Assembly (NCBI GenBank): GCA_018830565.1
Contig: JAHJRX010000003.1
Location: 1-48,923, forward strand
DNA: 48,923 nucleotides
Direction of reading: 5' to 3'
From: a bacterium
Lineage (GTDB): Bacteria; UBA9089; JAHJRX01
How positions within the stretch are numbered: position 1 is the first letter of the stretch; every line of letters starts with the position of its first letter. Shown piece by piece: positions 18,710 through 46,527 of the stretch. Both the position numbers and the translations under genes were made by a program. Under the pieces are notes generated by a model. That model worked only from the letters and a program-made list of their open reading frames with translations, had not been told where the DNA came from and did not search any database.

Positions 18710-19196
18710 ACAACTTTTAATTGCTCGGATTGATGATCGCCTTATTCATGGACAAGTGGTGGTAGGCTGGGGCAGAGTGATTGGTTTTCAGCTCTACATT
18801 GTCATTAATGATGAAGTAGCTAAGGATAAAACACAGCAAAATTTAATAAAGATAGCCATTCCCGTGGAAGCTAAAGTCTTAATATTCTCAATAGAAGAAG
18901 CTATTGAGAAATTAACTCGGGTAGTAAAAAATAAGAGAGCGATGTTGCTTTTTTCTAATCCTACAGATGTGTTAAAAGTGATAAAAGGTGGATTTAAGAT
19001 TTGTAGCGTCAACTTAGGTGGCTTAAGAAAATCGGAAAAAAAAAGGGAAATTTTACCTACAGTCTTTCTTGATAATGAAAAAATCGAAGTTTTTAAAGAA
19101 TTATCTCTTTTGGGAATTGAAATTGAGTATCGACTTTTACCAGGTGACGAAAAGGTAGACTTTATGGAAGTCTTAAAAAATGGAAAATTTATTTAA
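18702..19196 (+). CDS. PTS mannose/fructose/sorbose-type EIIB component
   Basis: 164 residues, the standard IIB length. The family signature is RIDDRLIHGQVVVGWGR, with His16 the predicted phosphorylation site that accepts the phosphate from IIA. The rest (AMLLFSNPTDVLKVIKGGF, INLGG-like VNLGGLR) matches the family. The last codons lie inside a 23-bp sequence that is repeated at the start of the IIC gene, implying that IIB and IIC once overlapped by about 17 bp. Confidence 0.93.
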   Translation: MSKQLLIARIDDRLIHGQVVVGWGRVIGFQLYIVINDEVAKDKTQQNLIKIAIPVEAKVLIFSIEEAIEKLTRVVKNKRAMLLFSNPTDVLKVIKGGFKICSVNLGGLRKSEKKREILPTVFLDNEKIEVFKELSLLGIEIEYRLLPGDEKVDFMEVLKNGKFI

Positions 19197-19202
19197 TATT
19201 AT
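19180..19202 (+). repeat. 23-bp direct repeat, left copy (original IIC start)
   Basis: An identical 23-bp run starts at 19180 and at 19379. This copy contains the IIB stop and an ATG (19180) with ggaag 9 nt upstream. Translation from it gives only MENLFNIM before a TAA at 19204. The second copy is the start of the present IIC gene. Confidence 0.85.
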
Positions 19203-19336
19203 GTAAGCGTTTAGCCGTCGGGTGCCAGCAGGAAGTTTTGACCATAAAATCAAGACAAAAAAGTCTTTCCTTTACCGCCTTTTTATCTTTTTGTGCCGCA
19301 ATGCCTTATAAAAGCTAAAAGCTGATCGCTGAATTT
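19203..19336. repeat. Intergenic repeat family E, copy 4, inside the IIB/IIC junction
   Basis: Left end gtaagcgtttagccgtcggg, right end aaaagctgatcgctgaat. The core gttttgaccataaaatcaag matches the inverse of the copy at 9678. It is flanked by the 23-bp direct repeat; 19337-19378 is an AT-rich run with repeated atagttatat. Confidence 0.6.
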
Positions 19337-19378
19337 ATATAGTTATATTTATATAGTTATATATGGAAATAGTTATAT

Positions 19379-20098
19379 ATGGAAAATTTATTTAATATTA
19401 TTTATATAGGAATTATAGGAGGGCTTATTAATTTAGATACCACTGTTTTTGCCCAAACTATGATTTCAAGACCATTAGTTACCGCTCCTCTGGTTGGATA
19501 CTTTTTAGGATATCTTTTGGGGTGTCCAGGAGAAGGCTTAAACTTAGGTTTAGTCATTGGAGTTTTATTAGAACTTTTGTGGTTAAATACTTTACCCATG
19601 GGTGCTTCGTTGCCACCTAATGTTTCTTTGCCTTCCACGGTGGGTGTTTCTTTATGCTTACTGATAAAAAAAACAATGGTGGTAGAAATAAATATTTTAA
19701 TTATCATCGTGATCATAGAAGCTTTTATCTTAGGTTCAATCTATGGAAGATTGGAGATATTAACTAGAAATATCTTAAATAAAAAGATAGCTCGAGCAGT
19801 GATTAGCCATGTGAATGAAGGAAAACTTTGGGCAGTAAGTATACTTAATTGGAAATGCATCTCTTATCACTTCTGGTTAGGATTTAGCCTTTGTTTCTTT
19901 TCCATCTTATTTCTCTTTTATCCTACTATCCTTCTTATTAGTTGGTTACCAGCGAAAGTTGTTAAAGGACTTTTATTGGCTAAAACTTTACTTCCTCTTT
20001 TGGGAGTAGCCATCGCTATTAATATGTTTTTTACCAAAAGATTGTTATCTTATCTTATTATTGGTTTTATCTTAGCCTTGGTATGTAAGTTTTCGTAA
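19379..20098 (+). CDS. PTS mannose-type EIIC component
   Basis: 239 residues, slightly shorter than the usual 250-270, with about six hydrophobic segments. The N-terminus GIIGGLINLDTTVFAQTMISRPLVTAPLVGY and the following LGLVIGVLLELLWLNTLPMGASLPPN are the family signature (substrate channel). The ATG at 19379 has no ribosome-binding site; the equivalent ATG with one is the decayed copy at 19180, so expression may be reduced or depend on coupling. The last 26 codons are repeated downstream. Confidence 0.92.
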   Translation: MENLFNIIYIGIIGGLINLDTTVFAQTMISRPLVTAPLVGYFLGYLLGCPGEGLNLGLVIGVLLELLWLNTLPMGASLPPNVSLPSTVGVSLCLLIKKTMVVEINILIIIVIIEAFILGSIYGRLEILTRNILNKKIARAVISHVNEGKLWAVSILNWKCISYHFWLGFSLCFFSILFLFYPTILLISWLPAKVVKGLLLAKTLLPLLGVAIAINMFFTKRLLSYLIIGFILALVCKFS

Positions 20099-20178
20099 TT
20101 AATATGTTTTTTACCAAAGGATTGTTATCTTATTATTTTATTGGTTTTATCTTAGCCTTGGTATGTAAGTTTTCGTAA
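20018..20178 (+). repeat. 80-bp tandem duplication of the IIC 3' end
   Basis: 20018-20097 and 20098-20177 are nearly identical (a few mismatches). The second copy still translates in one frame as NMFFTKGLLSYYFIGFILAL before VCKFS and a stop, against NMFFTKRLLSYLIIGFILAL in the gene. A third, 22-bp piece (20229-20250) repeats the end of the unit (from cttggtatg to cgtaa). Confidence 0.9.
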
Positions 20179-20298
20179 ACGTTCAAGCTGCAGTTAATTA
20201 AAAAGGGTTCTTTTTGGTTCTTTCTTAACTTGGTATGTAAGTTTTCGTAATCGTTCAGGCTACAGCAAAACAGGGGAAGAAAAACTGCAAAATGGGCC

Positions 20299-20402
20299 CT
20301 GTCCAATAAAAAATGCTTAATGAAAGAATGAAAAATTAGTTTTTACCGCCAAAGCACTAAACTATCTTTTTAATTTTTCATTATCTATTGGATAAGGGAC
20401 AG
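20299..20402. repeat. MITE-like inverted-repeat element in the 353-bp IIC/YCF48 gap
   Basis: Left end ctgtccaataaaaaatg; right end, inverted, ctgtcccttatccaatag then ataatgaaaaatt. The ends pair imperfectly around an AT-rich centre. The rest of the gap (20099-20451) holds the IIC duplication and two gtaa(a/t)cgttca(a/g)gct fragments that resemble family E ends; no gene is seen. Confidence 0.5.
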
Positions 20403-20451
20403 TTATTTTTGAAATTAGTTGAACGGTTACAAGTTTTCTTATTAAATTAAG

Positions 20452-21978
20452 ATGAATATATTAGCTATTATCTATCTCTTTGTAATAAGTTTAATATTTT
20501 TTCCGTCTTTGGCCTTGACTAATAGCTACGAAGAACAAGGAACTTATTTGGCAGATAAAAATAAAGCTGCCCTTCATTCTGTATATTTTTGTGATGAAAA
20601 TAATGGTTGGGCTGTAGGTTACCAAGTAAATGTTAAGACTAGCGATGATACAATTAATGATAATGTTGCTTATATTCTTAAGACTACAGATGGAGGGAAA
20701 AATTGGCAGGATATTACTCCCAAGAAAATATTAGAAAAGGGCAAATGGGTTTTTTGGATGGGGGAAAGACTTTATAAAGTCTTCTTTATCGATAAAGATA
20801 ATGGCTGGGTAATAGGCACTCATAGAACTATAGCTAAGACAAGCGATGGAGGAAATAGTTGGAGTGAAATAAATTTTCAGGCAGAGGAAGATAGAACAAA
20901 CGGACATGAAGTCTGGAGAGATATCTTTATTTATCAAGAAGGGGATGCTTATAAAGGCTTCTTGATAGGAGGAAGGTATAAGAATACTGATTATAATTAT
21001 CAAGATGTGGATAATGGGTATAAGCATGAAGGTTTTTTATACCGATATGTTGATGATAATAAGAAAGATAATAATAAAATAGACCTAACTGAAGTAAACG
21101 TCTTTAAAGAAAAGAGGTATAAGCATCTTACTAGTCTAAGTATTAGTTTAGTTAATGGCCATAAGGATGTCTGGGTTACAGGTTATAATTATGAAGGTAA
21201 AAATGATGTTGATAATTTTGGGCTTGTCTATTTCTCTGATGATGGAGGGGTTACCTGGAAAGAGGTAAGTCCTAAGAAAAAAGGGCATTCGGGAAAAGAT
21301 TATTCATTAGCTTGCTATAATAGTATAGCCTTAAGTAGTTACAATGCTTGGGTAGTAGGCACTGATAATACTATCTTGCTTTCCAGTGATTATGGAAATA
21401 GTTGGAAAAACCAAAACTATGAGAAGAAGTTATCCCAAGAAAATCTTAATAAGATATTCTTGGTCACTAATAATCTTGGGTATGCTGCGGGTAATAGAGG
21501 TAACTTATACCTTACTTTAAATGGCGGAGAAACTTGGGAAAAAGATAAAGATATTTCTCTTAAATACTGTGATAAAAAATTTCAAGGAATACATTTTCCT
21601 ACCCTCACTAAGGGATGGATAATTGGAGAAGGAGAGGTAGAAGGGAAAAACATCACTATCTTAAAGTATCTTCAAAGTGAAGAAATTTATTCGAACCAAG
21701 AAAAGGTGGTCATTTATCCTAATCCTTTTATCCCTAACGATTATCTTGAGAAGACAGGAAGTTATAATAGTGGGATTACCATAGAAAATTTATTTCCTTA
21801 TAGTTCTATAAAGATATTTACTACTTCCGGAGAGTTTGTTAAAGAACTTTCCCTCGCTGATGCTTACGGAAGGATCATTTGGAAAGTTGATAGTTCTATT
21901 TCCAGTGGCTTATACTTACTTGCTGGAAAAAGTAAGAATAATAAGAAAACCCTTGGGAAAGTAGTCATTATTAAGTAA
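20452..21978 (+). CDS. Secreted YCF48/BNR-repeat beta-propeller-like protein with sorting-type C-terminus
   Basis: 508 residues. A signal peptide (1-22) is followed by repeated Trp/Gly-rich blades: DENNGWAVGY...LKTTDGGKNW, DKDNGWVIGT...AKTSDGGNSW, YFSDDGGVTW, SYNAWVVGTDNTILLSSDYGNSW, NNLGYAAGNRGNLYLTLNGGETW. These are the YCF48/BNR-type blade motifs of beta-propellers. Residues 425-508 (VVIYPNPFIPNDY ... SGLYLLAGKSKNNKKTLGKVVIIK) form an FlgD/T9SS-like C-terminal Ig domain. It is probably exported; the function is unknown. It interrupts the PTS genes and is flanked by repeats on both sides, suggesting insertion into the operon. Confidence 0.75.
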   Translation: MNILAIIYLFVISLIFFPSLALTNSYEEQGTYLADKNKAALHSVYFCDENNGWAVGYQVNVKTSDDTINDNVAYILKTTDGGKNWQDITPKKILEKGKWVFWMGERLYKVFFIDKDNGWVIGTHRTIAKTSDGGNSWSEINFQAEEDRTNGHEVWRDIFIYQEGDAYKGFLIGGRYKNTDYNYQDVDNGYKHEGFLYRYVDDNKKDNNKIDLTEVNVFKEKRYKHLTSLSISLVNGHKDVWVTGYNYEGKNDVDNFGLVYFSDDGGVTWKEVSPKKKGHSGKDYSLACYNSIALSSYNAWVVGTDNTILLSSDYGNSWKNQNYEKKLSQENLNKIFLVTNNLGYAAGNRGNLYLTLNGGETWEKDKDISLKYCDKKFQGIHFPTLTKGWIIGEGEVEGKNITILKYLQSEEIYSNQEKVVIYPNPFIPNDYLEKTGSYNSGITIENLFPYSSIKIFTTSGEFVKELSLADAYGRIIWKVDSSISSGLYLLAGKSKNNKKTLGKVVIIK

Positions 21979-21985
21979 GATTATT

Positions 21986-22100
21986 TATAGTAGTTATTAA
22001 CGAAAACTAGACATAGGAAATAATACCGAGCAATAAAAGATAAACTCGTTGGCACTCAATTAATTTGCTCTATGTCAAATTTTCATTAATAAGTGCTATA
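21986..22100 (+). mobile_element. MITE-like element family A, copy 1
   Basis: 115 bp with about 30-bp terminal inverted repeats: left tatagtagttattaacgaaa..., right (inverted) tatagcacttattaatgaaa.... The core ataataccgagcaataaaag is conserved in all copies. No ORF. It begins 7 bp after the YCF48-like stop. Confidence 0.8.
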
Positions 22101-22126
22101 AGGTATTTTTATAGACGAAGGCAAGA

Positions 22127-22900
22127 ATGGATAAAAAACTTATCAGTGGTTTTGATTTACTAAAAGTTGCTTTTAGAACTTTGTGTTTCCAGGCAGTGTG
22201 GAATTTTGAGCGGATGTTAAACATTGGTTTTGCTTATGCTATTTTTCCTATCGGTAAGAAGTTATATCCAGAAATAGAAAGCCGAAAAAAGTTTATCATG
22301 AGGCATTTAGATTTTTTTAATACCCATCCTTATTTAGCTTCGATTTCTTTAGGTATAGTGATCTCAGAAGAAGAAAAAGCAGTCAAAGAAGGTAAGCAAG
22401 ATTTAAGTAAGGCCATAGATTTAAAGACAAAATTAATGGGTCCTTTTGGAGCATTAGGAGATAGCTTATTTTGGGCAACTTTGAAGCCACTATTTGGTTT
22501 AGTGGGAGTAATGTTAGTCTTTTGGGGTTTTAATGAATGGGGTCCAGTGGTATTTTTATTAGCTTATAATTTAATTCATTTACCAGTAAGATATTTAGGA
22601 ATAAAGAAAGGATACCAATGGGGTGAAAAAGCTATTGATCGGATTTGTAGTTTTCCTGTTCAAAAGATTATCTTCATAGCTCAAAAAGTAGCGATGTTCT
22701 TAATTGGCTTTGGAATGATTTTTTTAATTAATTTTCATGAGGTCTTTATTCTACCTGAAAATATGAAATTTATCTCTAAAATTATCTTTTTAGTCTTTAG
22801 TATCTCTATGGCTATTGCTATTAGATACCTGAAAAGAGTTTCTTTGCTCTTTACTTTATTTATTGGTTTTAGTATACTAATTGCTCATTTTATTGTCTAG
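22127..22900 (+). CDS. PTS mannose-type EIID component
   Basis: 257 residues. Family landmarks: FRTLCFQAVWNFERMLNIGFAYAIFPI near 16-42, HLDFFNTHPYLASISLGIVISEEE near 61-85, LMGPFGALGDSLFWATLKPL near 106-125, and hydrophobic segments in the C-terminal half. IID works only with IIC as the membrane channel of mannose-family PTS, so the separated gene still belongs to the IIA-IIB-IIC set. The ribosome site is weak (gaaggcaaga). It is followed by HPr and enzyme I. Confidence 0.93.
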   Translation: MDKKLISGFDLLKVAFRTLCFQAVWNFERMLNIGFAYAIFPIGKKLYPEIESRKKFIMRHLDFFNTHPYLASISLGIVISEEEKAVKEGKQDLSKAIDLKTKLMGPFGALGDSLFWATLKPLFGLVGVMLVFWGFNEWGPVVFLLAYNLIHLPVRYLGIKKGYQWGEKAIDRICSFPVQKIIFIAQKVAMFLIGFGMIFLINFHEVFILPENMKFISKIIFLVFSISMAIAIRYLKRVSLLFTLFIGFSILIAHFIV

Positions 22901-22957
22901 GAATTTGAAAAAATTTAGTGGTATCTGACAATAGCTTAAAGGATTTATTATCTTATA

Positions 22958-23227
22958 ATGAAGAAAAAATTAATGATTAAGAATAAATTAGGCTTACATG
23001 CCAGAGCAGCAGCTTTGTTTGTCCAAACAGCCAATAAGCATGAATCAGAAATATTAGTTAAAGCCGTAGGAGGCAATAGAAGAGTAAATGGTAAAAGCAT
23101 TATGGGTGTAATGATGATTGCGGCAGCTTATAACCAAGAGATCTTAATAGAGGCTAAAGGAAAAGATGAGAGAGAAGCTTTAGAAGAGCTAACTGTTTTA
23201 ATAGAAAGTAAGTTTAACGAGGAGTGA
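22958..23227 (+). CDS. ptsH: Phosphocarrier protein HPr
   Basis: 89 residues. His14 in NKLGLHARAAALFV is the site phosphorylated by enzyme I. Ser47 in VNGKSIMGVMMIAA matches the regulatory serine used by HPr kinase, although no HPr kinase gene is in the window. The rest is a full-length HPr fold. It lies 3 bp before the EI gene and shares its operon. No separate catabolite-control gene is visible. Confidence 0.95.
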   Translation: MKKKLMIKNKLGLHARAAALFVQTANKHESEILVKAVGGNRRVNGKSIMGVMMIAAAYNQEILIEAKGKDEREALEELTVLIESKFNEE

Positions 23228-23230
23228 CAA

Positions 23231-24964
23231 ATGCTATACCCTGGGATTGCTGCCTCTTCCGGAATTGCCATAGGAAAAGCTTTTTTGTATGAGGTTGAAA
23301 AGATTAAGATTGACCATTATCAAGTTTCTGAATCTCAGGTAGAAGAAGAGGTTGAAAGATTTAAAGAAGCAGTGCAAAGAACTAAGAATGAAATATTAGA
23401 GGTAAAGAGGAAAATAAGTAATGAGATAAGTAAAGAATATGTCGATATTTTTAAAGTTTATCTTTTAGTCCTAGAAGATCCTTTCTTGATTATCGAAGTA
23501 ATTCAGAAGGTAAAGAAAGAAAAAGTTAATATAGAATATGCCTTATGGGAAGTCCTAGAAGATTTAACTTCTAGTTTTAATGCCTTAGATGATGATTATT
23601 TAAGAGAGCGGGTTTCTGATATCTATGGCATTGGAAGAAAGATATTGCGTAACTTAGAAAATACAAAGAAGGTTTCTTTAAGTGATATTCAAGAGGAAGT
23701 AATTGTAGTCACTCACACTTTATCTCCTTCCGATACCGTCCAAATACAAAAGAGTAAAATAATTAGTTTTGTAACTGAAGTTGGAGGGAAGACTTCTCAT
23801 ACCGCCATTATGGCCCGAGCTTTAAAAATTCCAGCGGTATTAGGGATAAAGGATATTACTACCTGGGTTCAAAACGGGGATTTATTAATTGTTGATGGTC
23901 TTCATGGAATTGTTATTGTCAATCCCAATGAAGAGACTTTAAAAGAGTACCAAGAACAAAAGAAGAAGTTAAGTGAATTTATTGAGGGGTTAACCTCCTT
24001 AAGAGATTTACCTGCTCAAACATTAGATGGCTATAGAGTAGAAATTACGGCTAATATTGAAATTTCAGAAGAAGTAGAATTTGTGAAAAATTACGGAGCG
24101 GAAGGTATTGGTATTTATAGGACAGAGTTCATGTTCTTAGATCGAAGTGAGTTTCCTTCTGAAGAAGAGCAGTTTGAAGAATATAAAAAAATAGTTTCCA
24201 AAATGAATCCTTTTACGACAATTATTCGGACTATTGATCTAGGTGGAGATAAATTAGCTACCCATTTTAATTTTTCTGAAGAAGTAAATCCTTCCTTAGG
24301 CTTAAGAGCAATAAGGTTTTGTTTAAAATTCCCCGATATTTTTAAAAAACAACTTAGGGCTATCTTTAAAGCAAGTAATTATGGCCAAGTAAAGATTATG
24401 TTTCCTATGATTACCTCTTTAGATGAAATTCATCAACTAAAAAAGGCTTTAGAAGAAGTAAAGATAGAATTAAAAAAAGAAAGAGTACCTTTTGATGAGC
24501 AGATGGAGATAGGAATAATGATCGAGACTCCTTCTGCCGCTCTATGTGCAGATATTTTAGCCAAGGAAGTAAATTTTTTCAGTATCGGAACTAATGATTT
24601 AATTCAATATACTTTGGCGGTGGATCGAGGGAATGAAAGAGTAGCTTATTTATACACGTCTTCTCATCCTGCTATTTTACGATTAATCAAATTTGTTATT
24701 GAAGCTGCCCATAAGGAAGGAATTTGGGTAGGGATGTGTGGAGAAATGGCTGGCGATCCTTTGTATGCCCTTCTTCTTTTAGGTATGGGTTTAGATAAGT
24801 TTAGCATGAGTGTTTCCTGTGTCGCTGAGATTAAAGAGATCATTAGAAAGACTACCTTAAAAGAAGCTAAAGAATTAGTTTCAAAAATAACAAATTTACT
24901 AACTGCTGAGGAAGCAGATGAAGTGCTTAAAGAAAAAAGTCAAGAAAAGCTTAACTTAAGATAA
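23231..24964 (+). CDS. ptsI: PTS enzyme I (phosphoenolpyruvate-protein phosphotransferase)
   Basis: 577 residues, full length. It takes phosphate from PEP and gives it to HPr. N-terminal GIAASSGIAIGKAFL; HPr-binding helical region to about 145; active His190 in GGKTSHTAIMARALKIPAVLG; PEP-binding barrel with GIGIYRTEFMFLDR, LRAIRFCL, EIGIMIETPSAAL, FFSIGTNDLIQYTLAVDR and the catalytic Cys in GMCGEMAGDP. With HPr and IIA-IID it makes a complete, self-contained sugar PTS. Confidence 0.97.
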   Translation: MLYPGIAASSGIAIGKAFLYEVEKIKIDHYQVSESQVEEEVERFKEAVQRTKNEILEVKRKISNEISKEYVDIFKVYLLVLEDPFLIIEVIQKVKKEKVNIEYALWEVLEDLTSSFNALDDDYLRERVSDIYGIGRKILRNLENTKKVSLSDIQEEVIVVTHTLSPSDTVQIQKSKIISFVTEVGGKTSHTAIMARALKIPAVLGIKDITTWVQNGDLLIVDGLHGIVIVNPNEETLKEYQEQKKKLSEFIEGLTSLRDLPAQTLDGYRVEITANIEISEEVEFVKNYGAEGIGIYRTEFMFLDRSEFPSEEEQFEEYKKIVSKMNPFTTIIRTIDLGGDKLATHFNFSEEVNPSLGLRAIRFCLKFPDIFKKQLRAIFKASNYGQVKIMFPMITSLDEIHQLKKALEEVKIELKKERVPFDEQMEIGIMIETPSAALCADILAKEVNFFSIGTNDLIQYTLAVDRGNERVAYLYTSSHPAILRLIKFVIEAAHKEGIWVGMCGEMAGDPLYALLLLGMGLDKFSMSVSCVAEIKEIIRKTTLKEAKELVSKITNLLTAEEADEVLKEKSQEKLNLR

Positions 24965-27899: not shown

Positions 27900-27906
27900 A
27901 GATGAA

Positions 27907-29288: not shown

Positions 29289-30349
29289 ATTTAGAAAATT
29301 ATGGAGTTATCAATAGATATCGTGAGTTTTTACCAGTAAGTGAGAATACTCCTATTGTTACTTTAAATGAAGGAAATACTCCTTTAATTTTTGCTTCTAA
29401 TTTAAGCCAGTATCTTGGTAGCGAGATAAAGTTATATCTTAAGTACGAAGGTTTAAACCCTACAGGTTCATTTAAAGATCGTGGCATGACCGTGGCTGTT
29501 TCTAAAGCCAAAGAAGAAGGTGCTCAGATCATTATCTGTGCCTCTACTGGCAATACTTCCGCTTCTGCGGCTGCTTATGCCGCCAAAGGAAGGCTAAGAT
29601 GCGTGGTTTTAATTCCAGAAGGAGCCATTGCCTTAGGTAAGTTAGCTCAAGCTTTAATCTATGGAGCCCAAGTTTTAGCCGTAAAAGGGAATTTTGATGA
29701 AGCTTTAAGTTTGGTCTTGGAGATTACTAAAAGATATCCTATTACTTTAGTTAATTCCTTAAATCCCTATAGATTGCAAGGACAAAAGACCGCTGCTTTT
29801 GAAATATGTGATCTTTTAAAGAAAGCACCTGACTATCATGTTATTCCAGTAGGAAATGCTGGTAATATAACTGCTTACTGGATGGGATATAAAGAATATA
29901 AAGAAAAAGGAAGAATTAACAATCTCCCTAAAATGGTAGGATTTCAAGCAGCCGGGGCAGCTCCTATTGTAGAAAAAAGAGTCATAAAAGACCCCAAAAC
30001 TATTGCTACGGCCATTAAGATAGGAAATCCAGCTAGTTGGAAAAAAGCAGAAGAAGCAAGAGATGAATCAAAAGGTATCATTGATAAGGTTACCGATGAA
30101 GAGATCTTATTAGCTTACAAATTATTAGCTAACTTAGAAGGTATCTTCGTAGAACCTGCCTCAGCTGCTTCGATAGCTGGCATAATAAAAAAGAAGCAAG
30201 AAAACTACTTTCCAAAAGAAGCTACTATTGTCGCAGTGCTTACTGGGCATGGCTTAAAAGATCCCGACTGTGCCATAACGGAAAGTAAAAAGATTACCTT
30301 GGTGGGAGCTAATATAGAAGAGATCCGAAATGCCATAGGATTAAAGTGA
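29285..30349 (+). CDS. thrC: Threonine synthase
   Basis: 354 residues of the short threonine synthase type. It turns O-phosphohomoserine into threonine with PLP, bound at Lys64 in [10 protein letters not shown]. Phosphate loop [13 protein letters not shown] near 188-200; SASVAGI-like [10 protein letters not shown] near the C-terminus; the end is [15 protein letters not shown]. The 4-bp overlap with hom implies coupled translation. Its last codons lie in the first unit of an 84-bp tandem array. Confidence 0.96.
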
Positions 30350-30632
30350 GTCTTTAGCTCTTGAACAGTGCAAGGAAGAAATTGGGTGCGATATCGATAT
30401 ATTGAGATCCGAAATGCCATAGGATTAAAGTGAGTCTTTAGCTCTTGAACAGTGCAAGGAAGAAATTGGGTGCGATATCGATATATTGAGATCCGAAATG
30501 CCATAGGATTAAAGTAAGTCTTTAGTTCTTGAACAGTGCAAGGAAGAAATTGGGTGCGATATCGATATAGAAGAGATCCGAAATGCCATAGGATTAAAGT
30601 AAGTCTTTAGTTCTTGAACAGTGCAAGGAAGA
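30312..30632 (+). repeat. 84-bp tandem array, nearly four units, at the thrC/apgM junction
   Basis: Units start with agatccgaaatgccatagg at 30321, 30405, 30489 and 30574 (84, 84 and 85 bp). Each has a copy of the thrC 3' end, a stop, and the sequence cagtgcaaggaag. The last, partial unit provides the apgM ribosome site (caaggaag) just before the ATG at 30635. Units 1-2 (agtgag, gctctt) and 3-4 (agtaag, gttctt) differ, and unit 4 restores the exact thrC end peptide [11 protein letters not shown]. Confidence 0.95.
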
Positions 30633-30634: not shown

Positions 30635-31822
30635 ATGAAGTATATAATTATTGTCGGCGATGGGATGGCTGATTATCCATTAGAAGAGTTAGGAAATAAA
30701 ACTCCTCTTCAAGTAGCTCGGACGCCAAATTTTGATAAATTAGCTAAGGGAGGTATGGTAGGTTTAGCTAAGACTATTCCCGATGGCTTATCACCAGGAA
30801 GTGATGTAGCTAATCTTTCTATTTTAGGTTATAATCCCAACACCTATTATCCTGGAAGAGCTTCGTTAGAAGCAATAAGCCAAGGAATTATCTTAGAAAA
30901 AGAAGAAATAGCCTTTAGGTGTAATTTAGTAACGGTTGAAGATGGAATTATGATAGATTATAGTGGGGGACACATTACTACTTTAGAGGCAGAAAAATTT
31001 ATAGCTTTACTAAATCAAAGAATGGGTAAGGATAATTTAATATTTTATCCCGGAGTGAGTTACCGTAATCTAATAATCACCTCTCTTCTGCCAGTAGAAA
31101 GTTTACCAAGTTTAATTTGCTTTCCACCCCATGATATTACGGGAAAGAATATTTTAGAATATCTACCTAATCATGAGCTAATTAAAGAGATAATGTTTAC
31201 TTCGCAAAATATATTAAAAGAAAACAAGCTAAACTTAGAGAGAAAGCAAAGCAATAAAAGAGAAGTAAGCATGGTTTGGCTTTGGGGTCCAGGTTCTTTA
31301 CCTTCTATGCCCAAGTTTAGTGACCTATTTTCTTTAAAAGGGGCTAATATTGCGGCGGTAGATTTAATAAAAGGGATAAGCAAGAGCATAGGTTTTGAAG
31401 TTATAAAAGTAACAGGAGCTACTGGTTACTACGATACTGATTATCAAGCTAAAGCTAATTATGCTCTCCAGGCTTTGGAAGAGTTTGACTTGGTTTATAT
31501 CCACATCGAAGCACCGGACGAAGCTTCTCATAATGGAGAGATAAGTGAGAAAATCAAAGCGATTGAAGAAATAGATCAGAAAGTATTAGGAACAATCTTA
31601 GAAAAAGTAGAAAGATATCAAGATTACAAAATTTTACTCATTACTGACCATTATACACCTGTTTCTTTAAAAACTCATACTAAAGAAATAGTTCCTTTTA
31701 TTGTTTATGGAACTTCTATCGAAAAAGATGACATTGTTCTTTTTGATGAAGAAAGTGCCAAGGATAGCTCTCTTTATTTTGAAGAAGGATACAAATTAAT
31801 GGAGTGGTTTATAAACAAGTAG
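30635..31822 (+). CDS. ApgM-family enzyme; probable homoserine kinase substitute
   Basis: 395 residues from ATG 30635 (MKYIIIVGDGMADYP), chosen over the upstream TTG because the repeat array supplies aggaag directly before it. It is the archaeal-type, cofactor-independent phosphoglycerate mutase fold (alkaline phosphatase superfamily): GDGMADYPLEEL, SPGSDVANLSILGYNP around the catalytic Ser, and metal-binding HIEAPDEASHNG and ITDHYTPVSLKTHT. A subset of this family found beside hom and thrC, in genomes lacking thrB, has been proposed to be homoserine kinase (TIGRFAM 'proposed homoserine kinase'). The hom-thrC-apgM-lysC order and absence of thrB here fit that proposal. Phosphoglycerate mutase remains the alternative. 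Confidence 0.85.
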   Translation: MKYIIIVGDGMADYPLEELGNKTPLQVARTPNFDKLAKGGMVGLAKTIPDGLSPGSDVANLSILGYNPNTYYPGRASLEAISQGIILEKEEIAFRCNLVTVEDGIMIDYSGGHITTLEAEKFIALLNQRMGKDNLIFYPGVSYRNLIITSLLPVESLPSLICFPPHDITGKNILEYLPNHELIKEIMFTSQNILKENKLNLERKQSNKREVSMVWLWGPGSLPSMPKFSDLFSLKGANIAAVDLIKGISKSIGFEVIKVTGATGYYDTDYQAKANYALQALEEFDLVYIHIEAPDEASHNGEISEKIKAIEEIDQKVLGTILEKVERYQDYKILLITDHYTPVSLKTHTKEIVPFIVYGTSIEKDDIVLFDEESAKDSSLYFEEGYKLMEWFINK

Positions 31823-39252: not shown

Positions 39253-39369
39253 TATAGCACTTATTAATGAAAATTTGACATAGAGCAAATTAATTTTTAA
39301 CTCCAAATAAGTTTATCTTTTATTACTCGGTATTATTTCCTATGTCTATTTTTATTAATAACTACTATA
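39253..39369 (-). mobile_element. MITE-like element family A, copy 5 (inverted)
   Basis: Reverse orientation: tatagcacttattaatgaaa at the left, tttattaataactactata at the right. The inner core, inverted, is ataataccgagtaataaaag. The rest of the 514-bp secF-rnhA gap has the tRNA below and AT-rich DNA with no gene. Confidence 0.8.
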
Positions 39370-39745: not shown

Positions 39746-40168
39746 TCAACCTTCTAAAGCCTTAAAAGAACAAGCTTTTTGAGCTAAGTCATTAGCTAAT
39801 TTATTTTTTTGGCGAGGTAGGTGAGAAATATTAAATTCTTTAAAATTCTTAATGAATTTACCTACTTCCATAATTAAAGATTGGAGTATTTTATCTTTAA
39901 CCTTATATTCTCCATTTATTTGCCTTACCATTAATTGACTATCACTAAATACTTGCACTTGGGAACAATTCTTTTTACTTGCTATTTCCAAGCCATAAAT
40001 TAAAGCTTTATACTCAGCAATATTATTGGTAGTATCTCCAATGTATTTACTAAACTTATCAACTAAGTTATGGTCTTGGTCAAAAAAGATAACCCCTATT
40101 CCTCCTGGCCCAGGATTACCTTTACAAGCTCCATCGGTATAAATAATAAGCTTATTATCTGTTTCCAT
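39746..40168 (-). CDS. rnhA: Ribonuclease HI-like protein
   Basis: 140 residues from ATG 40168 (METDNKLIIYTDGACKGNPGPGG). It cuts RNA in RNA-DNA hybrids. The Asp of YTDGACKGNPGP, the Glu in NIAEYKALIYGLE, and the Asp in VFSDSQLMVRQING are the metal-binding triad, with the later Asp in NDLAQKA. It is the short bacterial/archaeal RNase H type. I prefer ATG 40168 to the GTG at 40207: ggaaag is at a suitable distance. The preceding sequence is a duplicated copy of the zinc-ribbon gene end. Confidence 0.9.
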   Translation of the reverse strand: METDNKLIIYTDGACKGNPGPGGIGVIFFDQDHNLVDKFSKYIGDTTNNIAEYKALIYGLEIASKKNCSQVQVFSDSQLMVRQINGEYKVKDKILQSLIMEVGKFIKNFKEFNISHLPRQKNKLANDLAQKACSFKALEG

Positions 40169-40266
40169 CTTCATCTTTCCAATATAATAATATAACACAA
40201 TTTTCACATTTATTTGTTTCCATCTTCATCCTCCCAGTATAATATTCTAACACAATTTTCACATTT
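40161..40266 (-). repeat. 55-bp period duplication at the zinc-ribbon/rnhA junction
   Basis: 40161-40211 and 40216-40266 match over 51 bp with about 5 mismatches. On the minus strand copy 1 ends the zinc-ribbon gene (KCENCVRILYWEDEDGNK-stop); copy 2 would read KCENCVILLYWKDEDGNR-stop. Both carry an ATG GAA ACA start for rnhA; only copy 2's opens the full gene. Confidence 0.92.
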
Positions 40267-40929
40267 AATGAGATCTGAAGTAAGTTTAACTTCATTCTCA
40301 ACTTGAGGAGGTAAAGCTATAAAACAACCTTGACAGATATTATTCTTTACCGGCACAATAGCTAAATTATTCTTACTCTTAAAAAGCTTGTAATATAAGT
40401 TTAATGAATATTGGTTAACTTTTTTAGAAGTAGTCTCTTGAGTCTCTTTTAAATTTTGCAAATTCTTCTTTTTTTCTTCTATATCGCGATGATATTCTCT
40501 TTCTAAGCTATTTAGTCTTTGCTCCTCTTTATTAATTATCTTTTTTTCTATCTCTAATTCTTTAGAAGAAACTTCTACCGTTTCCATTATCTCGATAATT
40601 TTATCTTCTAATCGTGATATTTCTTCCTTGGTAGATAAAATTTCATTATTTAAAGCCTCCATCTCTTTTTGAGTCTTTACCTTGTATATCTGCTCATTAT
40701 ATCGTTTGAACTCTTCATTTTTTACACTAAGCTTTCTTTCTTTGCTTCTTAAATCCTTTTCTATATTTTCTAACTCTTTTTCTCTCAAGTTGAATTTTTC
40801 TTTACATTTTAAAAACTCGTTTCTTAGCTTTTCCAATTCTAACGGCAATCTTTCTATTTCTGCAGATATCCTTACAATTTCCTGATCGATCTTTTGAAGA
40901 TCAATAAGATATGGAATTTGTGAATTCAT
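40210..40929 (-). CDS. Coiled-coil zinc-ribbon protein (COG1579/HP0958-like)
   Basis: 239 residues. Residues 1-180 are an antiparallel coiled coil (YLIDLQKIDQEIVRISAEIERLPLELEKL ... NNEILSTKEEISRLEDKI), followed by a four-cysteine zinc ribbon, CQGC (about 198-201) and CENC (about 222-225). Relatives bind RNA or flagellar proteins; the role here is unknown. It is leftward and probably co-transcribed with rnhA. The last codons have been duplicated before rnhA. Confidence 0.88.
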   Translation of the reverse strand: MNSQIPYLIDLQKIDQEIVRISAEIERLPLELEKLRNEFLKCKEKFNLREKELENIEKDLRSKERKLSVKNEEFKRYNEQIYKVKTQKEMEALNNEILSTKEEISRLEDKIIEIMETVEVSSKELEIEKKIINKEEQRLNSLEREYHRDIEEKKKNLQNLKETQETTSKKVNQYSLNLYYKLFKSKNNLAIVPVKNNICQGCFIALPPQVENEVKLTSDLIKCENCVRILYWEDEDGNK

Positions 40930-41064: not shown

Positions 41065-41066
41065 TA

Positions 41067-41186: not shown

Positions 41187-41192
41187 CAATCT

Positions 41193-41221
41193 ATTATAAA
41201 TAATATCTAAACAGTTGTCAA
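41193..41221 (-). promoter_or_regulatory. Consensus sigma-70-type promoter, leftward
   Basis: On the minus strand TTGACA (41216-41221), spacer of exactly 17 nt, then TATAAT (41193-41198): both hexamers match the consensus completely. Confidence 0.75.
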
Positions 41222-41249
41222 TAAATTCTAGATAATTTATATAAAATAA

Positions 41250-41278
41250 TTGACTTTACTCAACTAACTCAGTAATAT
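41250..41278 (+). promoter_or_regulatory. Candidate promoter for ruvX-mltG
   Basis: TTGACT (41250-41255), 17-nt spacer, TAATAT (41273-41278), about 45 nt before the ruvX start. Back-to-back with the leftward promoter at 41193-41221. Confidence 0.45.
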
Positions 41279-41322
41279 GTACATATTATTAATACAGGAA
41301 AATACAGGAAGTTAAACAATAG

Positions 41323-41748
41323 ATGAGTATTATAGGTTTAGATATTGGTGATAAGACAATAGGCATTTCAGTAAGCGATCCAGGAAAGTCAATTGCTCTG
41401 GGACTTAAAACTTTAAAAAGAGAAAATATAAAAGAAGATCTAACTAAAATAAAGAAGGTTGTTGATGATTATAAAACAGAAAAGATAGTTTTAGGCTATC
41501 CTAAAAATATGGATGGTAGTATAGGCAAATCTGCTCAAAAGGTTTTAGATTTTGAAAAAGAATTAAAGAGTTTTATCGATTTAGAAACTGTCTTTTGGGA
41601 CGAAAGATTGACTACCTTAGAAGCAGAAAAACTCTTAATTCACGGAAACGTCAAGAGAAAGAAGAGAAGAGAAGTTATTGATACCCTTTCCGCAGTATTG
41701 ATTCTACAAAATTATTTAGATTATTATAAGAATAGAGGTAAAATGTGA
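41323..41748 (+). CDS. ruvX: RuvX/YqgF-family Holliday junction resolvase-like RNase
   Basis: 141 residues, usual length. RNase H-fold residues: GLDIGDKTIGISVSDPG (first Asp), LGYPKNMDGSIG, WDERLTTLEAE and the final DTLSAVLILQNYLD. The family is linked to pre-16S rRNA 5' end maturation and proposed to resolve recombination junctions. It overlaps mltG by 4 bp (GTGA), so they are co-translated. Confidence 0.95.
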   Translation: MSIIGLDIGDKTIGISVSDPGKSIALGLKTLKRENIKEDLTKIKKVVDDYKTEKIVLGYPKNMDGSIGKSAQKVLDFEKELKSFIDLETVFWDERLTTLEAEKLLIHGNVKRKKRREVIDTLSAVLILQNYLDYYKNRGKM

Positions 41749-42758
41749 AGAAGATTTTAACGATTACCTTTATTGTGACCATATTTATGATCACTATCTT
41801 TAAAGAACCCCTAGTAAAGTATCTTGGTAATTTTATAGAACAAGAAGCTATAAAGAGAAATAAAAGTTACCAAGAGTGTCTGGTCATTATTCCTCCTGGT
41901 AAAAATGTAAAAGAGATTGCTAAAATATTAGAAGAGAAAAAGATTATCTTTAGTCAGAGAATCTTTATTGCCTTAACTAAGGCATTAAACGTCGAGAATA
42001 AACTAAGAATAGGAAGATATAAACTTAATAATAAGATGCGATCTCTTCAAATTATTGAAAGATTACAAAGAGGGGGAGAAGGGTTATACAAATTTACTAT
42101 TCCCGAAGGATACACTTTTCAACAAATAGCTCTCTTTTTAGATGAAAAAAAGTTGGTCGATAAAGATAAATTCTTAAGAAACTATAATAATGTATTCCTA
42201 TTAAAAGAAAGAGAGAGGAAGAATTGTTTAAATTTAGAAGGCTATCTTTTTCCAGATACCTATGAATTATTATTTAGGTTCAAAGAGGTAGATGTCATTA
42301 AGATGATGATTCATCGTTTTTATGAAGCAGCCGGAGACAATTATCAAGAATTAGCCAAGAAAGCAGGAATAAGCCTGCATGAAGCCGTAACCCTAGCTTC
42401 GATTATTGAAAAAGAAGTTAAAGCTCCGGAAGAGAAAAAGATTATATCAGCAGTCTTCTATAATAGATTAAAAAAAAGAATGCCCCTTTCTTCTTGTGCT
42501 ACCGTAATGTATGCTTTAGGAAAGCACAAAGAGAAGCTTTTATATGAAGATTTAAAGATTAATTCTCCTTATAATACTTATTTAAGATTAGGGTTTCCTC
42601 CGGGTCCTATTTGTAGTCCAGGCAAAGAAAATTTACAAGCTGCTGTCTCTCCTGCTCCGGTAGAATATTTATACTTTGTTTCTTTAGGAAATGGAAGACA
42701 TAAATTTTCTAAGGATTACCTTCGGCATGTAAAAGCAAGAAATACTATTAAAAAATAA
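41745..42758 (+). CDS. mltG: Endolytic murein transglycosylase MltG/YceG-like
   Basis: 337 residues. An N-terminal membrane helix (4-19) precedes a LysM-like part and the YceG domain. The catalytic Glu is about residue 222 in SIIEKEVKAPEEK. YNRLKKRMPLSSCATVMYALG and YNTYLRLGFPPGPICSPGKENLQAAVSP follow the family, although LSSCATV replaces the common LQTDPTV. It is thought to end growing glycan strands. GTG start, overlapped with the ruvX stop; the gap to the next gene is 46 bp. Confidence 0.95.
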   Translation: MKKILTITFIVTIFMITIFKEPLVKYLGNFIEQEAIKRNKSYQECLVIIPPGKNVKEIAKILEEKKIIFSQRIFIALTKALNVENKLRIGRYKLNNKMRSLQIIERLQRGGEGLYKFTIPEGYTFQQIALFLDEKKLVDKDKFLRNYNNVFLLKERERKNCLNLEGYLFPDTYELLFRFKEVDVIKMMIHRFYEAAGDNYQELAKKAGISLHEAVTLASIIEKEVKAPEEKKIISAVFYNRLKKRMPLSSCATVMYALGKHKEKLLYEDLKINSPYNTYLRLGFPPGPICSPGKENLQAAVSPAPVEYLYFVSLGNGRHKFSKDYLRHVKARNTIKK

Positions 42759-42804
42759 CTGGTTTTCGGTAACTCGATCAAGCAACATAAAGGTTAATAA
42801 AAAC

Positions 42805-43263
42805 TTGTTAAGAAGAGCTACCTCTAAAGATATACCTGAAATTCAAAAGATAATTAATTATTATGCTTCTAAGGGATATATGCTTCCCCGTTCTTTAAAT
42901 GAGCTCTACGAAAATACTGGTAATTTTTTAGTAGAAGAGGAAGAAGGTAAAGTAGTAGCGTGTTGTGGTCTTTATATAGTTTGGGAGAATTTAGCTGAAA
43001 TTAAGTCCTTAGCGGTTAAGGAAGAATATCAGCATAAAGATTTGGGAAAGAAATTAATTAAGGAATCTTTAGTCCAAGCTAAAAGATTAATAATTAATCA
43101 AGTATTTGCCTTAACCTTTATTCCAGAATATTTTGAGAAACTTAACTTTAAAAAAATAGACAAGGGTAACCTACCCCATAAAATTTGGTCAGATTGTATT
43201 AAGTGTATCCATTTTCCTAATTGCAATGAAACAGCGGTAGTAATTTCATTAGAGGAGACTTAA
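42805..43263 (+). CDS. GNAT N-acetyltransferase, N-acetylglutamate-synthase-like
   Basis: 152 residues of GNAT fold: RRATSKDIPEIQKIIN, strand LVEEEEGKVVACCGLYI, acetyl-CoA loop KSLAVKEEYQHKDLGKKLIKESL and ALTFIPEYFEKLNFKKI. The cysteine-rich tail PHKIWSDCIKCIHFPNCNET, together with LPRSLNELYEN, is typical of short ArgA-like N-acetylglutamate synthases in several bacterial groups. No arginine genes are adjacent, so this is by family resemblance. TTG start; ends with TA-ATG overlap of the next gene. Confidence 0.8.
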   Translation: MLRRATSKDIPEIQKIINYYASKGYMLPRSLNELYENTGNFLVEEEEGKVVACCGLYIVWENLAEIKSLAVKEEYQHKDLGKKLIKESLVQAKRLIINQVFALTFIPEYFEKLNFKKIDKGNLPHKIWSDCIKCIHFPNCNETAVVISLEET

Positions 43264-43760
43264 TGAATGGATTAGATCTTGCTCTTTTAGTAGTTCTAAG
43301 TATCAGTGCTATTATTGGACTTTGGAAAGGAATTACCCGGGGCATATTTTCTTTAATAGCTATCATTACAGGAGTTGTGATTTCAAGTAAGTATTATCTT
43401 ATTGTAAGCATCGCTCTTCATAACTATATTAAGTCTAGTCTTTGGTCGAATATAGTAAGTTTTATTATTATATTGACAATCATCACTTTAATTATTAGTC
43501 TTATGGGAACCTTAGTTAAAAGATTAATGGGCATTTTAGCTTTAGGTTGGATAGATCATTTAGGTGGTTTAGCCTTTGGAGTGGTAAGGGGGATATTGAT
43601 AGGCGGTTTAGTAATTATGATGATGAATATATTTCCTATTGAGGAAGGTAAAAAAGTATTGGCCAAATCTACCTTGTCTCCTCACTTACTTCAAGTAACA
43701 AAAAATCTTTTATCCTTATTGCCAGAAGAGTTTTGTTATCCTTTTAAAGATTATCTCTAA
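43263..43760 (+). CDS. cvpA: CvpA-family membrane protein
   Basis: 165 residues with four hydrophobic segments. The start NGLDLALLVVLSISAIIGLWKGITRGIFSLIAI and the later GWIDHLGGLAFGVVRGILIGGLV match CvpA-type inner-membrane proteins (linked in E. coli to colicin V production and envelope homeostasis). The exact role is unknown. Its ATG shares the A of the previous TAA (1-bp overlap). Confidence 0.82.
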   Translation: MNGLDLALLVVLSISAIIGLWKGITRGIFSLIAIITGVVISSKYYLIVSIALHNYIKSSLWSNIVSFIIILTIITLIISLMGTLVKRLMGILALGWIDHLGGLAFGVVRGILIGGLVIMMMNIFPIEEGKKVLAKSTLSPHLLQVTKNLLSLLPEEFCYPFKDYL

Positions 43761-43816
43761 TAAAGTTAGCTAAGAAATAAAGTAAGCTAAGAAAAATAAT
43801 TAAGAAAGAAAAAGTA

Positions 43817-45052
43817 GTGGAAGAAGAGATTAGTATTTTAGATTATCTTAAAGTTATTTATAAGTATCGTTTGGGAATTATATCTTTAGTAGTGATTACT
43901 TTATTAACTACGACGGTAATCACTCTTCGATTGCCAAAAACTTACCAAGCTACTACTACTTTGGCTGTGTTAACCACAGTTCCGATGGAGACAGAAAAAG
44001 AGAAAGGCAATAGATCGGAATATTCCATAGAAACTTATGTAAATTTAGTAAAAAATCTTACTTTTTTACAACAAATTCTTGATAAATATCACCTAGATCT
44101 TCCTCCCTTGAAATGGAATATCTTTGATTTTGAAAAGCAAATTAAGGTAGAGAAGATCTCTAATTCAAAATTAATTAAGATTAAATTTAGTTTTAATGAT
44201 CCAGAAAAAGCAAGGTTAATTTTACAGGATATTGCTGAAAGAGCGGTGATTTTAAATCAAGATATTATTAAAAATACCACTAAAGATACCAATAAGTTTT
44301 GTCAAGAACAACTTCAATTAGCTTCCAAAAAATTAGAAAAAGCAGAGAAAAATTTATTGGAATTTAATTGTAGTTCTAATTTAAACTCAATTAGTAAAGA
44401 GATGGAACTTTTAATTACTACCAAAGGTGAGCTAAAGACAAAGTATGATAGGACTTGTTTAGAGATAGAAGAAAAGGAATCTCGATTAAAGGAAGCAGGT
44501 TTTCAAATTAAAGATGAAGCCAAGATAATTTTTCTCAAGAAATCAGTTGCTGAAGACCCAAGTATAGCCAATTTAATGAATCTCCAAAAGAATGAAGAGA
44601 TTAAATCTTTACAATTAAGTACTGAAACTATAAATCTTCTTTATCAAGACTTAAGAAAATTAATGGTCGATACTTCTATTGATTTAAAAGGCCTTTATGC
44701 TAATAAGAAGAGTATGGAAAATAGTTTGAAGATTAACGAAGAAAGGCTTTCTAAAGTTCAAAGTAAGGTTGCCCAGGTAAAGAGCAAAAAAGAAGAATTA
44801 GAAAGAGATTATAATTTATCAGAAGAGAATCTCTTAAATATCTCTCAAATTTATAATAAGAATGAGTTTAGAATGGCTTCGGTCATGGATAACTTAAGAA
44901 TTATTGATTATCCTATCAAGCCAATTTATCCTTCTTCTCCTAAGGTAGGAATAATTATAGGAATGGCTTTTTGTCTTAGTTTATTTATGGGAATATTCTT
45001 AGCTTTTATTAAAGAGTGGCTTCATAAGGTAAGTTTTAATGAGATAAGATAA
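43817..45052 (+). CDS. Wzz/GumC-type polysaccharide chain-length protein
   Basis: 411 residues, GTG start. A membrane helix (about 16-37), a periplasmic domain starting YQATTTLAVL, a long coiled coil (about 150-345), and a C-terminal proline-rich patch IDYPIKPIYPSSPKVG before the second helix (about 378-402). No tyrosine kinase domain follows, so it is the membrane-only form. It probably sets chain length of an exported polysaccharide. Its last 54 bp overlap the end of the convergent phosphomannomutase gene. Confidence 0.85.
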   Translation: MEEEISILDYLKVIYKYRLGIISLVVITLLTTTVITLRLPKTYQATTTLAVLTTVPMETEKEKGNRSEYSIETYVNLVKNLTFLQQILDKYHLDLPPLKWNIFDFEKQIKVEKISNSKLIKIKFSFNDPEKARLILQDIAERAVILNQDIIKNTTKDTNKFCQEQLQLASKKLEKAEKNLLEFNCSSNLNSISKEMELLITTKGELKTKYDRTCLEIEEKESRLKEAGFQIKDEAKIIFLKKSVAEDPSIANLMNLQKNEEIKSLQLSTETINLLYQDLRKLMVDTSIDLKGLYANKKSMENSLKINEERLSKVQSKVAQVKSKKEELERDYNLSEENLLNISQIYNKNEFRMASVMDNLRIIDYPIKPIYPSSPKVGIIIGMAFCLSLFMGIFLAFIKEWLHKVSFNEIR

Positions 45053-46393
45053 ATGATCTTCCACTGTCTTTCTCATCTCCTCAAGATCCTTTTCCAAAGC
45101 AGCTTCAAACCTCAAGACCAGGGCAGGTTGGGTATTAGAAGCTCTAATTAATCCAAAACCACCAGGAAACTTAATGCGGGCTCCATCTATCTCAATAACC
45201 TCATAATTTCTTTTAAAGTGCTCTTTTATCTTCTTCACTATCTTAAATTTTAAGTAATCAGGGCAGTTAACCCTAATCTCTGGAGTGTTAAAAGTAGTGG
45301 GCAGGTCAGCTAAAAATTTAGATAACTTCTTCTTATTTTTTTTTAAAACTTCAATTAATCTACAAGTGGTGTAAATCGCATCATCAAAGCCAAAATAACG
45401 ATCCGCAAAGAAGATATGACCACTCATTTCCCCTGCTAAGACAGCTTTTTCTTCTTTCATCTTAGCCTTAATTAAAGAATGGCCCGTCTTCCACATTATC
45501 GGTATTCCCCCATGTCTTTGAATGTCCTGATATAAAAGGTCTGAACATTTTACCTCCCCAATAAATTTAGCACCAGGAATAAACTTTAGTATTTCCCGAG
45601 AAAAGATCATCATTAATTTGTCTCCCCAAATGATATTCCCCTCTTCATCAATCACCCCAATTCTATCGGCATCACCATCATAAGCAATACCTAAATCAGC
45701 TCCTTCTTTTAAAGTTACTTGGATTAAGTCTTGCAAATATTCAGGCACCGTAGGATCTGGGTGATGGTGAGGAAAACTACCATCAGGTTCAGTGTAAAGT
45801 TCTATTAAATGACAGTTTAAGTTTTTAAGAATTTTTGGTACTACTAGCCCGGCGGTGCCATTACCACAATCAATAACTATTTTTATTCTACGATCATTGC
45901 TTAAATCCTTAAAACAATCAATAAGATATTGAGTATATCTTGAAATAATATCAATTTTAACTACTTCTCCTTTTCCTTGTTTGAAATTTCCTTCTTCCGT
46001 TACTCTTAAAATTTCTTGAATCTTCTCTCCGTAAAGGGCTTCTTTTCCTAAGCATAGTTTTAACCCATTGTATTCTGGAGGATTATGACTTCCGGTAACC
46101 ATTACTCCTCCTCCTACCTCTAATTGATGAAGAGCAAAGTAAAGTGAGGGAGTAGGGCAGATTCCTAAATCTAAAACATCTAACCCAGTAGAAGTAATTC
46201 CTTTAATTAAACTTTCGGCAAGTAAAGGAGAGCTCAATCTTGTATCTTGACCGATAGCTATCTTGGTAATCTTCTCCTCTTGAGCTATCGAGCCATAAGC
46301 TTGACCAATCTTGAATGTTATTTCCTCTGTTAAGTCAACACCTGCTACTCCTCTAATATCGTATTCCCGAAAAATATTTTTCTCTATTTTCAT
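44999..46393 (-). CDS. Phosphomannomutase/phosphoglucomutase
   Basis: 464 residues from ATG 46393 (MKIEKNIFREYDIRG), preferred because aaagg is well spaced from it but too near the ATG at 46402. Alpha-D-phosphohexomutase family: FREYDIRG; catalytic serine loop VTGSHNPPEYNGLK; metal loop AYDGDADRIGVID; sugar loop GEMSGHIFF; phosphate loop RASNTQPALVLRFEA. It interconverts hexose 6- and 1-phosphates, feeding GDP-mannose via the manC product upstream. It overlaps the convergent chain-length gene by 54 bp. Confidence 0.93.
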   Translation of the reverse strand: MKIEKNIFREYDIRGVAGVDLTEEITFKIGQAYGSIAQEEKITKIAIGQDTRLSSPLLAESLIKGITSTGLDVLDLGICPTPSLYFALHQLEVGGGVMVTGSHNPPEYNGLKLCLGKEALYGEKIQEILRVTEEGNFKQGKGEVVKIDIISRYTQYLIDCFKDLSNDRRIKIVIDCGNGTAGLVVPKILKNLNCHLIELYTEPDGSFPHHHPDPTVPEYLQDLIQVTLKEGADLGIAYDGDADRIGVIDEEGNIIWGDKLMMIFSREILKFIPGAKFIGEVKCSDLLYQDIQRHGGIPIMWKTGHSLIKAKMKEEKAVLAGEMSGHIFFADRYFGFDDAIYTTCRLIEVLKKNKKKLSKFLADLPTTFNTPEIRVNCPDYLKFKIVKKIKEHFKRNYEVIEIDGARIKFPGGFGLIRASNTQPALVLRFEAALEKDLEEMRKTVEDHLSYLIKTYLMKPLFNKS

Positions 46394-46411
46394 GCCAGCC
46401 ATACCTTTCTA

Positions 46412-46527
46412 CAAATACTTGATAATTTTCTCTTTAAGTCCAATTAAAATCAACAAGATCGGCATTCGACAGTTGCTCTTTATCTTTTGCATCTTTACAA
46501 ATATTTTATCGTCTTCTCTTCTTTAAG
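46412..46527 (-). repeat. Decayed duplicate of the manC 3' end before pmm
   Basis: manC ends RLKEEKTIKYL-stop; 72-85 bp further on the minus strand the sequence again reads GLKEKIIKYL-stop, about 80% identical in DNA over some 33 bp. After the first stop a short frame begins MQKIKSN, recalling the MKIEKN start of pmm. Confidence 0.65.

Follow-up and report, generated by a model that had tools for sequence, protein, structure and literature searches.

Short local duplications at operon junctions in a UBA9089 bacterium, probably shaped by selection on reading frames

Why do gene ends recur as short repeats at five places in a single stretch of bacterial DNA? The stretch, here called the window, is the whole 48,923-nt contig JAHJRX010000003.1 (C3 in our sample) of a metagenome-derived genome (GCA_018830565.1; lineage UBA9089, JAHJRX01; 1.70 Mb in 86 contigs, 99.3% complete), and the five places are the IIB/IIC, thrC/apgM, zinc-ribbon/rnhA, and manC/pmm junctions and the 3′ end of IIC. 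Family searches verified the names EIIA, EIIB, and EIIC (a mannose-type phosphotransferase system; IIC is PF03609), ThrC, RNase HI, and GMP (ManC), as well as ApgM (of the proposed homoserine kinase group), a CdsZ-like zinc-ribbon protein, and a PgmG-like phosphomutase (pmm). An earlier note on this DNA suggested that duplication had separated overlapping or tightly packed genes at these sites and knew of no process that explained all five. As we discuss below, we think it likely that frequent short local duplication, by slippage or template switching, combined with purifying selection accounts for the copies, with no targeting of junctions needed.

First, short duplications are unusually common in this genome. 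We sampled 550 kb of this one genome, including the window and amounting to about one-third of the total, and compared it with 427 kb of the genome G001, with 518 kb taken from the phylum's other genomes, and with 1.14 Mb outside the phylum. G001, the nearest genome compared, represents a sister genus in the same family (protein identity 69–72%; ~25% diverged), and most of the window is collinear with it at 71–79% DNA identity over long blocks. Repeat pairs were found by an ungapped scan with a low-complexity filter, at a score of at least 20 in the window and at least 24 for comparisons between genomes, and genes were called by a simple longest-open-reading-frame (ORF) rule. Outside single genes, the sample contained 33 pairs (6.0 per 100 kb), compared with 6 in G001 (1.4 per 100 kb; p = 0.00017), 7 in the rest of the phylum (1.36 per 100 kb; p = 0.00005), and 7 in other phyla (0.62 per 100 kb; p = 1e-10). 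The count for the phylum leaves out one array of clustered regularly interspaced short palindromic repeats (CRISPR) with a ~65-bp period, at L267:2430-5200 of G013. Periods in the sampled genome had a median of 80 bp (interquartile range 71–89), with 26 of the 33 pairs between 55 and 106 bp, and, with copies ranging from 87% to 100% identical, the duplication events are spread over time.

In the window itself, the repeats at IIB/IIC, the IIC 3′ end, the thrC array, and rnhA were far above chance and were recovered by Tandem Repeats Finder together with a repeat search. The ungapped scan returned these four along with a nested pair and a repeat inside a gene, and Markov resampling of the same sequence yielded zero pairs at the scan threshold. 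The fifth repeat, at manC/pmm, is a diverged 34-bp pair that is significant only when gaps are allowed. Thus, four of the five duplicated gene ends described earlier stand as proposed, and the fifth survives as a gapped match.

Second, the positions of the copies reflect reading frames. If period-matched duplications were placed at random, 70% would fall within genes and break the frame, 13% would fall within genes and keep it, 9.9% would lie at a gene boundary, and 7% would be intergenic. Away from contig ends, we observed 21 boundary pairs (including IIB/IIC, which was added by hand) and 6 intergenic pairs, with 7 or 8 in-frame pairs inside genes and at most one out-of-frame pair in coding sequence, found at the loosest score. 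Judging by the number of harmless survivors, some 110 duplications that break a frame inside a gene should have been present had selection not acted. A scan of this kind had been proposed in the earlier note, and, over the 550 kb, far more pairs lay at gene boundaries than uniform placement would put there (21 of 27 compared with 9.9%; p ~1e-16). Most of this enrichment arises because only duplications across or outside gene boundaries spare reading frames. A frame-sparing filter alone predicts a boundary share of 58.5%, compared with 75–83% observed over thresholds (21 of 27 in one set), and a special junction process is not needed. Stop codons are not singled out, because gene starts and gene ends are affected about equally.

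Third, the sister genus retains single-copy states. G001 has one copy at five loci: IIB/IIC, the IIC 3′ end, manC/pmm, and two loci elsewhere in the sampled genome. In G001, the IIB end and IIC start lie within GGAATGGAAAATTTATTTAGTATTATT, with a 17-bp out-of-frame overlap, and the extra length here (197) matches the repeat period. The strongest case outside the window is L099:9483, a gene that we take from its sequence, MEIIVAENAGFCYGVKRAINLA, to be ispH. There, a 157-bp duplication contains the end of the upstream gene, a TAATG overlap, and roughly the first 34 ispH codons; G001 has one copy with the same 1-bp TAATG overlap, and the extra length here (156) again matches the period. The other is L064:9403-9650, presumably a floA-like gene to judge from its sequence, in which a ~170-bp backward jump followed by a forward jump rebuilt the 3′ end and changed the last residues. 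At manC/pmm, the two G001 genes are 2 bp apart and the second copy is missing. When the extra copy was removed in silico, neighbor spacing became –17 bp at IIB/IIC, –4 at L060:7759, –4 at L061:3985, and –1 at L099:9483. Comparison with a relative, as the earlier note advised, therefore revealed a single-copy overlapping state at IIB/IIC and ispH. The idea that short duplications separated overlapping or tightly packed genes holds for these two junctions and for the abutting manC/pmm pair. It does not extend to thrC/apgM, where no former overlap can be inferred because G001 carries a long spacer of unrelated sequence (400 bp between aligned flanks).

Finally, the copies have the form expected of local replication errors. 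About half of the pairs are direct tandem copies with no insert, and among the fillers of the 19 spaced pairs ~10 significantly resemble nearby sequence in direct orientation and one in inverted orientation. Such fillers and the two-jump floA rearrangement are the outcome expected if slippage or template switching recurs within a single fork. In the mechanism that we propose, this lineage would often make short local tandem duplications, with a net gain mostly of 55–106 bp (median 80), probably when the nascent strand slips back or switches template within the replication fork; where several jumps occur, filler would be left between the copies. Purifying selection would then remove nearly all in-gene duplications that shift the reading frame. 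If the unit spans a boundary, the first copy would keep the upstream stop codon and the second copy would provide the downstream ribosome-binding site and start codon, even for overlapping genes, and such duplications would survive because both genes stay usable. Overlapping neighbors could thus be separated in one step with neither damaged, leaving a mini-ORF behind. From these patterns we infer that slippage or template switching makes the copies and that those which survive are selectively neutral.

Several results weigh against this explanation. The boundary excess over the filter prediction is marginal (p 0.03–0.09; 0.05; 0.033–0.086), and a weak extra preference for junctions is possible. 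Microhomology at the breakpoints of tandem copies, calculated from period and copy length, is short (0–8 bp), and simple slippage would not predict the narrow size distribution around 80 bp. We found no gene that accounts for the raised rate. MutS (PF00488) was not detected in this genome or in G001 (both 98–99% complete), whereas a control search detected it in 11 of 14 known genomes, and its loss was rejected as the cause because it is equally absent from low-rate G001. Base composition was also rejected, as G001 is more AT-rich (30.8% compared with 33.7% GC) yet has the lower rate. In addition, when frame-breaking in-gene events were simulated, the longest-ORF caller mislabeled half of them as junctions. 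The same simulation labeled 38% of such events as disrupted genes, a label that occurred nowhere in the real data, and collapsing the duplications merged two predicted ORFs only at floA, where the duplication sits at the gene's 3′ end. The collapse test and the lack of disrupted-gene calls argue against frequent mislabeling.

The individual junctions of the window (Table 1) support much of what the earlier note had described. IIB/IIC contains a perfect 23-bp pair flanking the insert, and zinc-ribbon/rnhA contains a 55-bp tandem pair on the minus strand (40155-40267; 89–90% identical). At both, the unit includes the downstream start codon, the first copy opens a mini-ORF, and the real gene starts in the second copy. 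The further claim of a better Shine-Dalgarno site in the first copy is clear for rnhA (GGGAGG versus GGAAAG) and weak for IIB/IIC (GGAAG versus GGAAA). In the first zinc-ribbon/rnhA copy, the start ATG AAG ATG GAA ACA lies within the final 20 nt of the zinc-ribbon gene. Neither the zinc-ribbon protein nor the rnhA product had a match in G001. The match to rnhA in G010, a more distant genome, directly follows or overlaps the zinc-ribbon gene end, and a spacer separates the two genes in G002, G004, and G012. A former overlap at this junction would thus be suggested mainly by the sequence of the junction itself.

At thrC/apgM, each repeat unit carries the thrC end, its stop codon, the apgM Shine-Dalgarno site, and ~24 bp of filler, and the apgM ATG lies outside the array at 30635. 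The manC/pmm pair was missed by the ungapped scan (best score 15, compared with ≤18 for 99% of random real windows), and its gapped 34-bp match (~76% identity) scored 17.5, compared with 15 for the 99.9% shuffle quantile. This repeat is an old, diverged pair, whose reality is supported by the single-copy state in G001. The IIC 3′ end has a further partial copy at 20229, and the nested pair downstream is a later or more complex event at this site. The window also contains an in-frame 51-bp repeat at 1080 and 1371 (period 291), inside a 1,493-residue protein encoded at 72-4553.

Table 1. Duplicated copies, inserts, and mini-ORFs at the five sites of the window
Feature	Position	Strand	Remark
IIB/IIC overlap, first copy	19180..19202	+	IIB stop and start of 8-codon mini-ORF, MENLFNIM then stop
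Insert between IIB/IIC copies	19203..19378	+	176 bp; dispersed inverted-repeat-like element and AT-rich 14-16 bp tandem repeats
IIB/IIC overlap, second copy	19379..19401	+	real IIC start
IIC 3′ end with stop codon, tandem pair	20018..20178	+	80 bp, 95% identical; one copy in G001
Nested pair downstream of IIC 3′ duplication	20157..20265	+	37 bp, 92%, period 72
thrC/apgM array	30320..30632	+	84-bp unit, 3.7 copies; copies 97-99% alike
zinc-ribbon/rnhA, first (first-transcribed) copy	40210..40267	-	zinc-ribbon stop and strong Shine-Dalgarno GGGAGG before ATG
zinc-ribbon/rnhA mini-ORF	40155..40229	-	24 codons, MKMETNKCENCVILLYWKDEDGNR then stop; overlaps zinc-ribbon gene and rnhA start by 20 bp each
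zinc-ribbon/rnhA, second copy	40155..40209	-	real rnhA start, ATG at 40174; Shine-Dalgarno GGAAAG
manC/pmm, first copy	46496..46529	-	manC 3′ end; gapped alignment
manC/pmm mini-ORF	46409..46492	-	27 residues, old start to second-copy stop; ends 6 bp before pmm start
manC/pmm, second, diverged copy of manC 3′ end	46410..46440	-	just before pmm; absent in G001

Could a dedicated enzyme make these copies instead? A nicking or integrase-like activity that made staggered cuts ~80 bp apart at junctions, followed by fill-in duplication, would suit the narrow period around 80 bp, the presence of A-B-A structures with filler, and a boundary share slightly above the neutral-filter expectation. We regard this possibility as improbable, since gene starts and ends are equally affected, the filter covers most of the enrichment, and the units and fillers of different loci have no common sequence beyond dispersed palindromes. 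Indeed, a comparison of units and fillers across the duplication loci found no shared family except one dispersed palindrome at L062:5997, and a shared mobile unit was rejected because fillers are not common to different loci. Moreover, Cas1 (PF01867) was not found in this 99.3%-complete genome by a search that was positive in 9 of 14 control genomes, and Ku (PF02735) was not found in this genome or in G001 by a search that detected the Bacillus subtilis control. The absence of these proteins led us to reject, respectively, neo-CRISPR formation by Cas1, which the A-B-A spacing had suggested, and Ku-dependent fill-in during nonhomologous end joining. It is similarly doubtful that a lineage-specific activity makes ~80-bp duplications with a preference for translated junctions and thereby actively loosens overlapping operons.

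Small mobile repeats that insert with long target-site duplications, tolerated when they land in an overlap, are a very unlikely source. The IIB/IIC spacer does hold a dispersed element, with partial matches at window positions 9685-9793 and in contigs C62 and C35, and a REP (repetitive extragenic palindromic)-like end adjoins the IIC 3′ duplication. Many dispersed palindromic or MITE (miniature inverted-repeat transposable element)-like repeats are also present in the genome. In most pairs, however, neither the copies nor the sequence between them contains a dispersed repeat, roughly half are direct tandems that contain no insert, and two other copies of the IIB/IIC element, judged by eye, lack a 20-bp flanking duplication. 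The earlier suggestion that repeat elements sometimes landed between copies is clear within the window at IIB/IIC only, where one copy of a REP-like family sits between the duplicated overlaps. This family has GTAAACGTTCGGCTGTCAGC-like inverted ends and occurs at window positions 19203-19340 and 9685-9793 and at L105:13194-13290. A separate, ~130-bp MITE-like element, whose terminal inverted repeats are imperfect (TATAGCACTTATTAATGAAAATTTGACATAG ... CTATGTC..TTTTCGTTAATAACTACTATA), occurs at window positions 39269 (+), 25102 (–), and 22084 (–) and at 18 further sites in the sampled contigs; one of its motifs has 21 exact matches in the 550 kb.

An equally slim chance attaches to regulatory innovation, in which the mini-ORF or extra ribosome-binding site would couple translation of the neighbors, as proposed for the mycobacterial interspersed repetitive units (MIRUs). 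At rnhA, manC/pmm, and L105:17736, the mini-ORF reaches the second-copy stop, ends within ~20 bp of the real start, and keeps a chain of coupled frames. By contrast, IIB/IIC, ispH, and L060:7759 are uncoupled, with mini-ORFs that do not reach that stop. A duplication that spans an overlap necessarily leaves a start codon in the first copy, and whether its frame reaches the second-copy stop depends on the period modulo 3. Selection for coupling was rejected, as the few cases available (~3–4 of 9) match the one-in-three expectation for reading frames. The units also lack stable structure, and a structured RNA was rejected after the repeats gave no Rfam match and no unusual fold. Error in the assembly of a metagenome-derived genome is extremely unlikely. 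The assembly is fragmented (86 contigs), and contig ends carry more arrays than expected (7 of 64 ends, compared with 1.2), an excess that fits arrays the assembler could not cross. Artifacts, however, would ignore reading frames, and there is essentially no copy inside a gene that breaks the frame. The copies also differ by up to 13%, and arrays beyond the assembly word size would be expected to break contigs.

If short duplication followed by selection is correct, then it bears on how gene overlaps are lost. A survey of overlapping genes stated that earlier studies covered the creation of overlaps, not their loss, and in its account loss requires shifts of start or stop codons (PMC4161906). 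Duplication across an overlap would provide a one-step, nearly damage-free route to loss, with single-copy relatives at two overlapping junctions. By all appearances, short duplications of a characteristic size arise naturally and at a high rate in this genome. The genome also shows that operon junctions can seem targeted when selection is largely responsible.

The duplications resemble four known systems in part. Like bacterial minisatellites, or variable-number tandem repeats, which are known from bacterial genome comparisons, they have tandem units of tens of base pairs that are unrelated between loci. They differ in that many are two-copy, recent, filler-containing, and straddle gene boundaries, and in their density, which is 4–10 times that of the comparison genomes. 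One minisatellite search required a motif of at least 20 bp, at least two repeats, and at least 90% identity (PMC2884548). As head-to-tail repeats, the IIC 3′ end (95%) and thrC (97–99%) fall within these limits (taken as ~90% or more), rnhA (89–90%) is borderline, and manC/pmm (~76%) falls outside. As described in PMC12548453 (citing Supply et al., 1997), MIRUs are short elements repeated at the junctions of operons, where each leaves a small ORF that is coupled to the gene downstream. Short repeats lie at operon junctions here too; a small ORF overlaps or abuts both neighbors at rnhA, manC/pmm, and L105:17736, and does not do so at IIB/IIC, ispH, or L060:7759. MIRUs, however, form one dispersed, apparently mobile family, whereas each unit here copies its own junction and units of different loci are not homologous. 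Off-target spacer integration, which creates neo-CRISPRs, yields an A-B-A structure, with two copies of a short sequence flanking an insert. The same structure is seen here, in a genome that lacks Cas1, contains many arrays with no insert, and has fillers that are often local sequence. Rearrangements in E. coli have been explained by repeated template switching during replication, or microhomology-mediated break-induced replication, with short-microhomology junctions and inserted nearby sequence (PMC3161906). The E. coli events mostly span kilobases or more and many are inverted, whereas those described here are ~80 bp and direct, and share with template switching and slippage their inserts copied from nearby, as seen in ~10 of 19 fillers and at floA.

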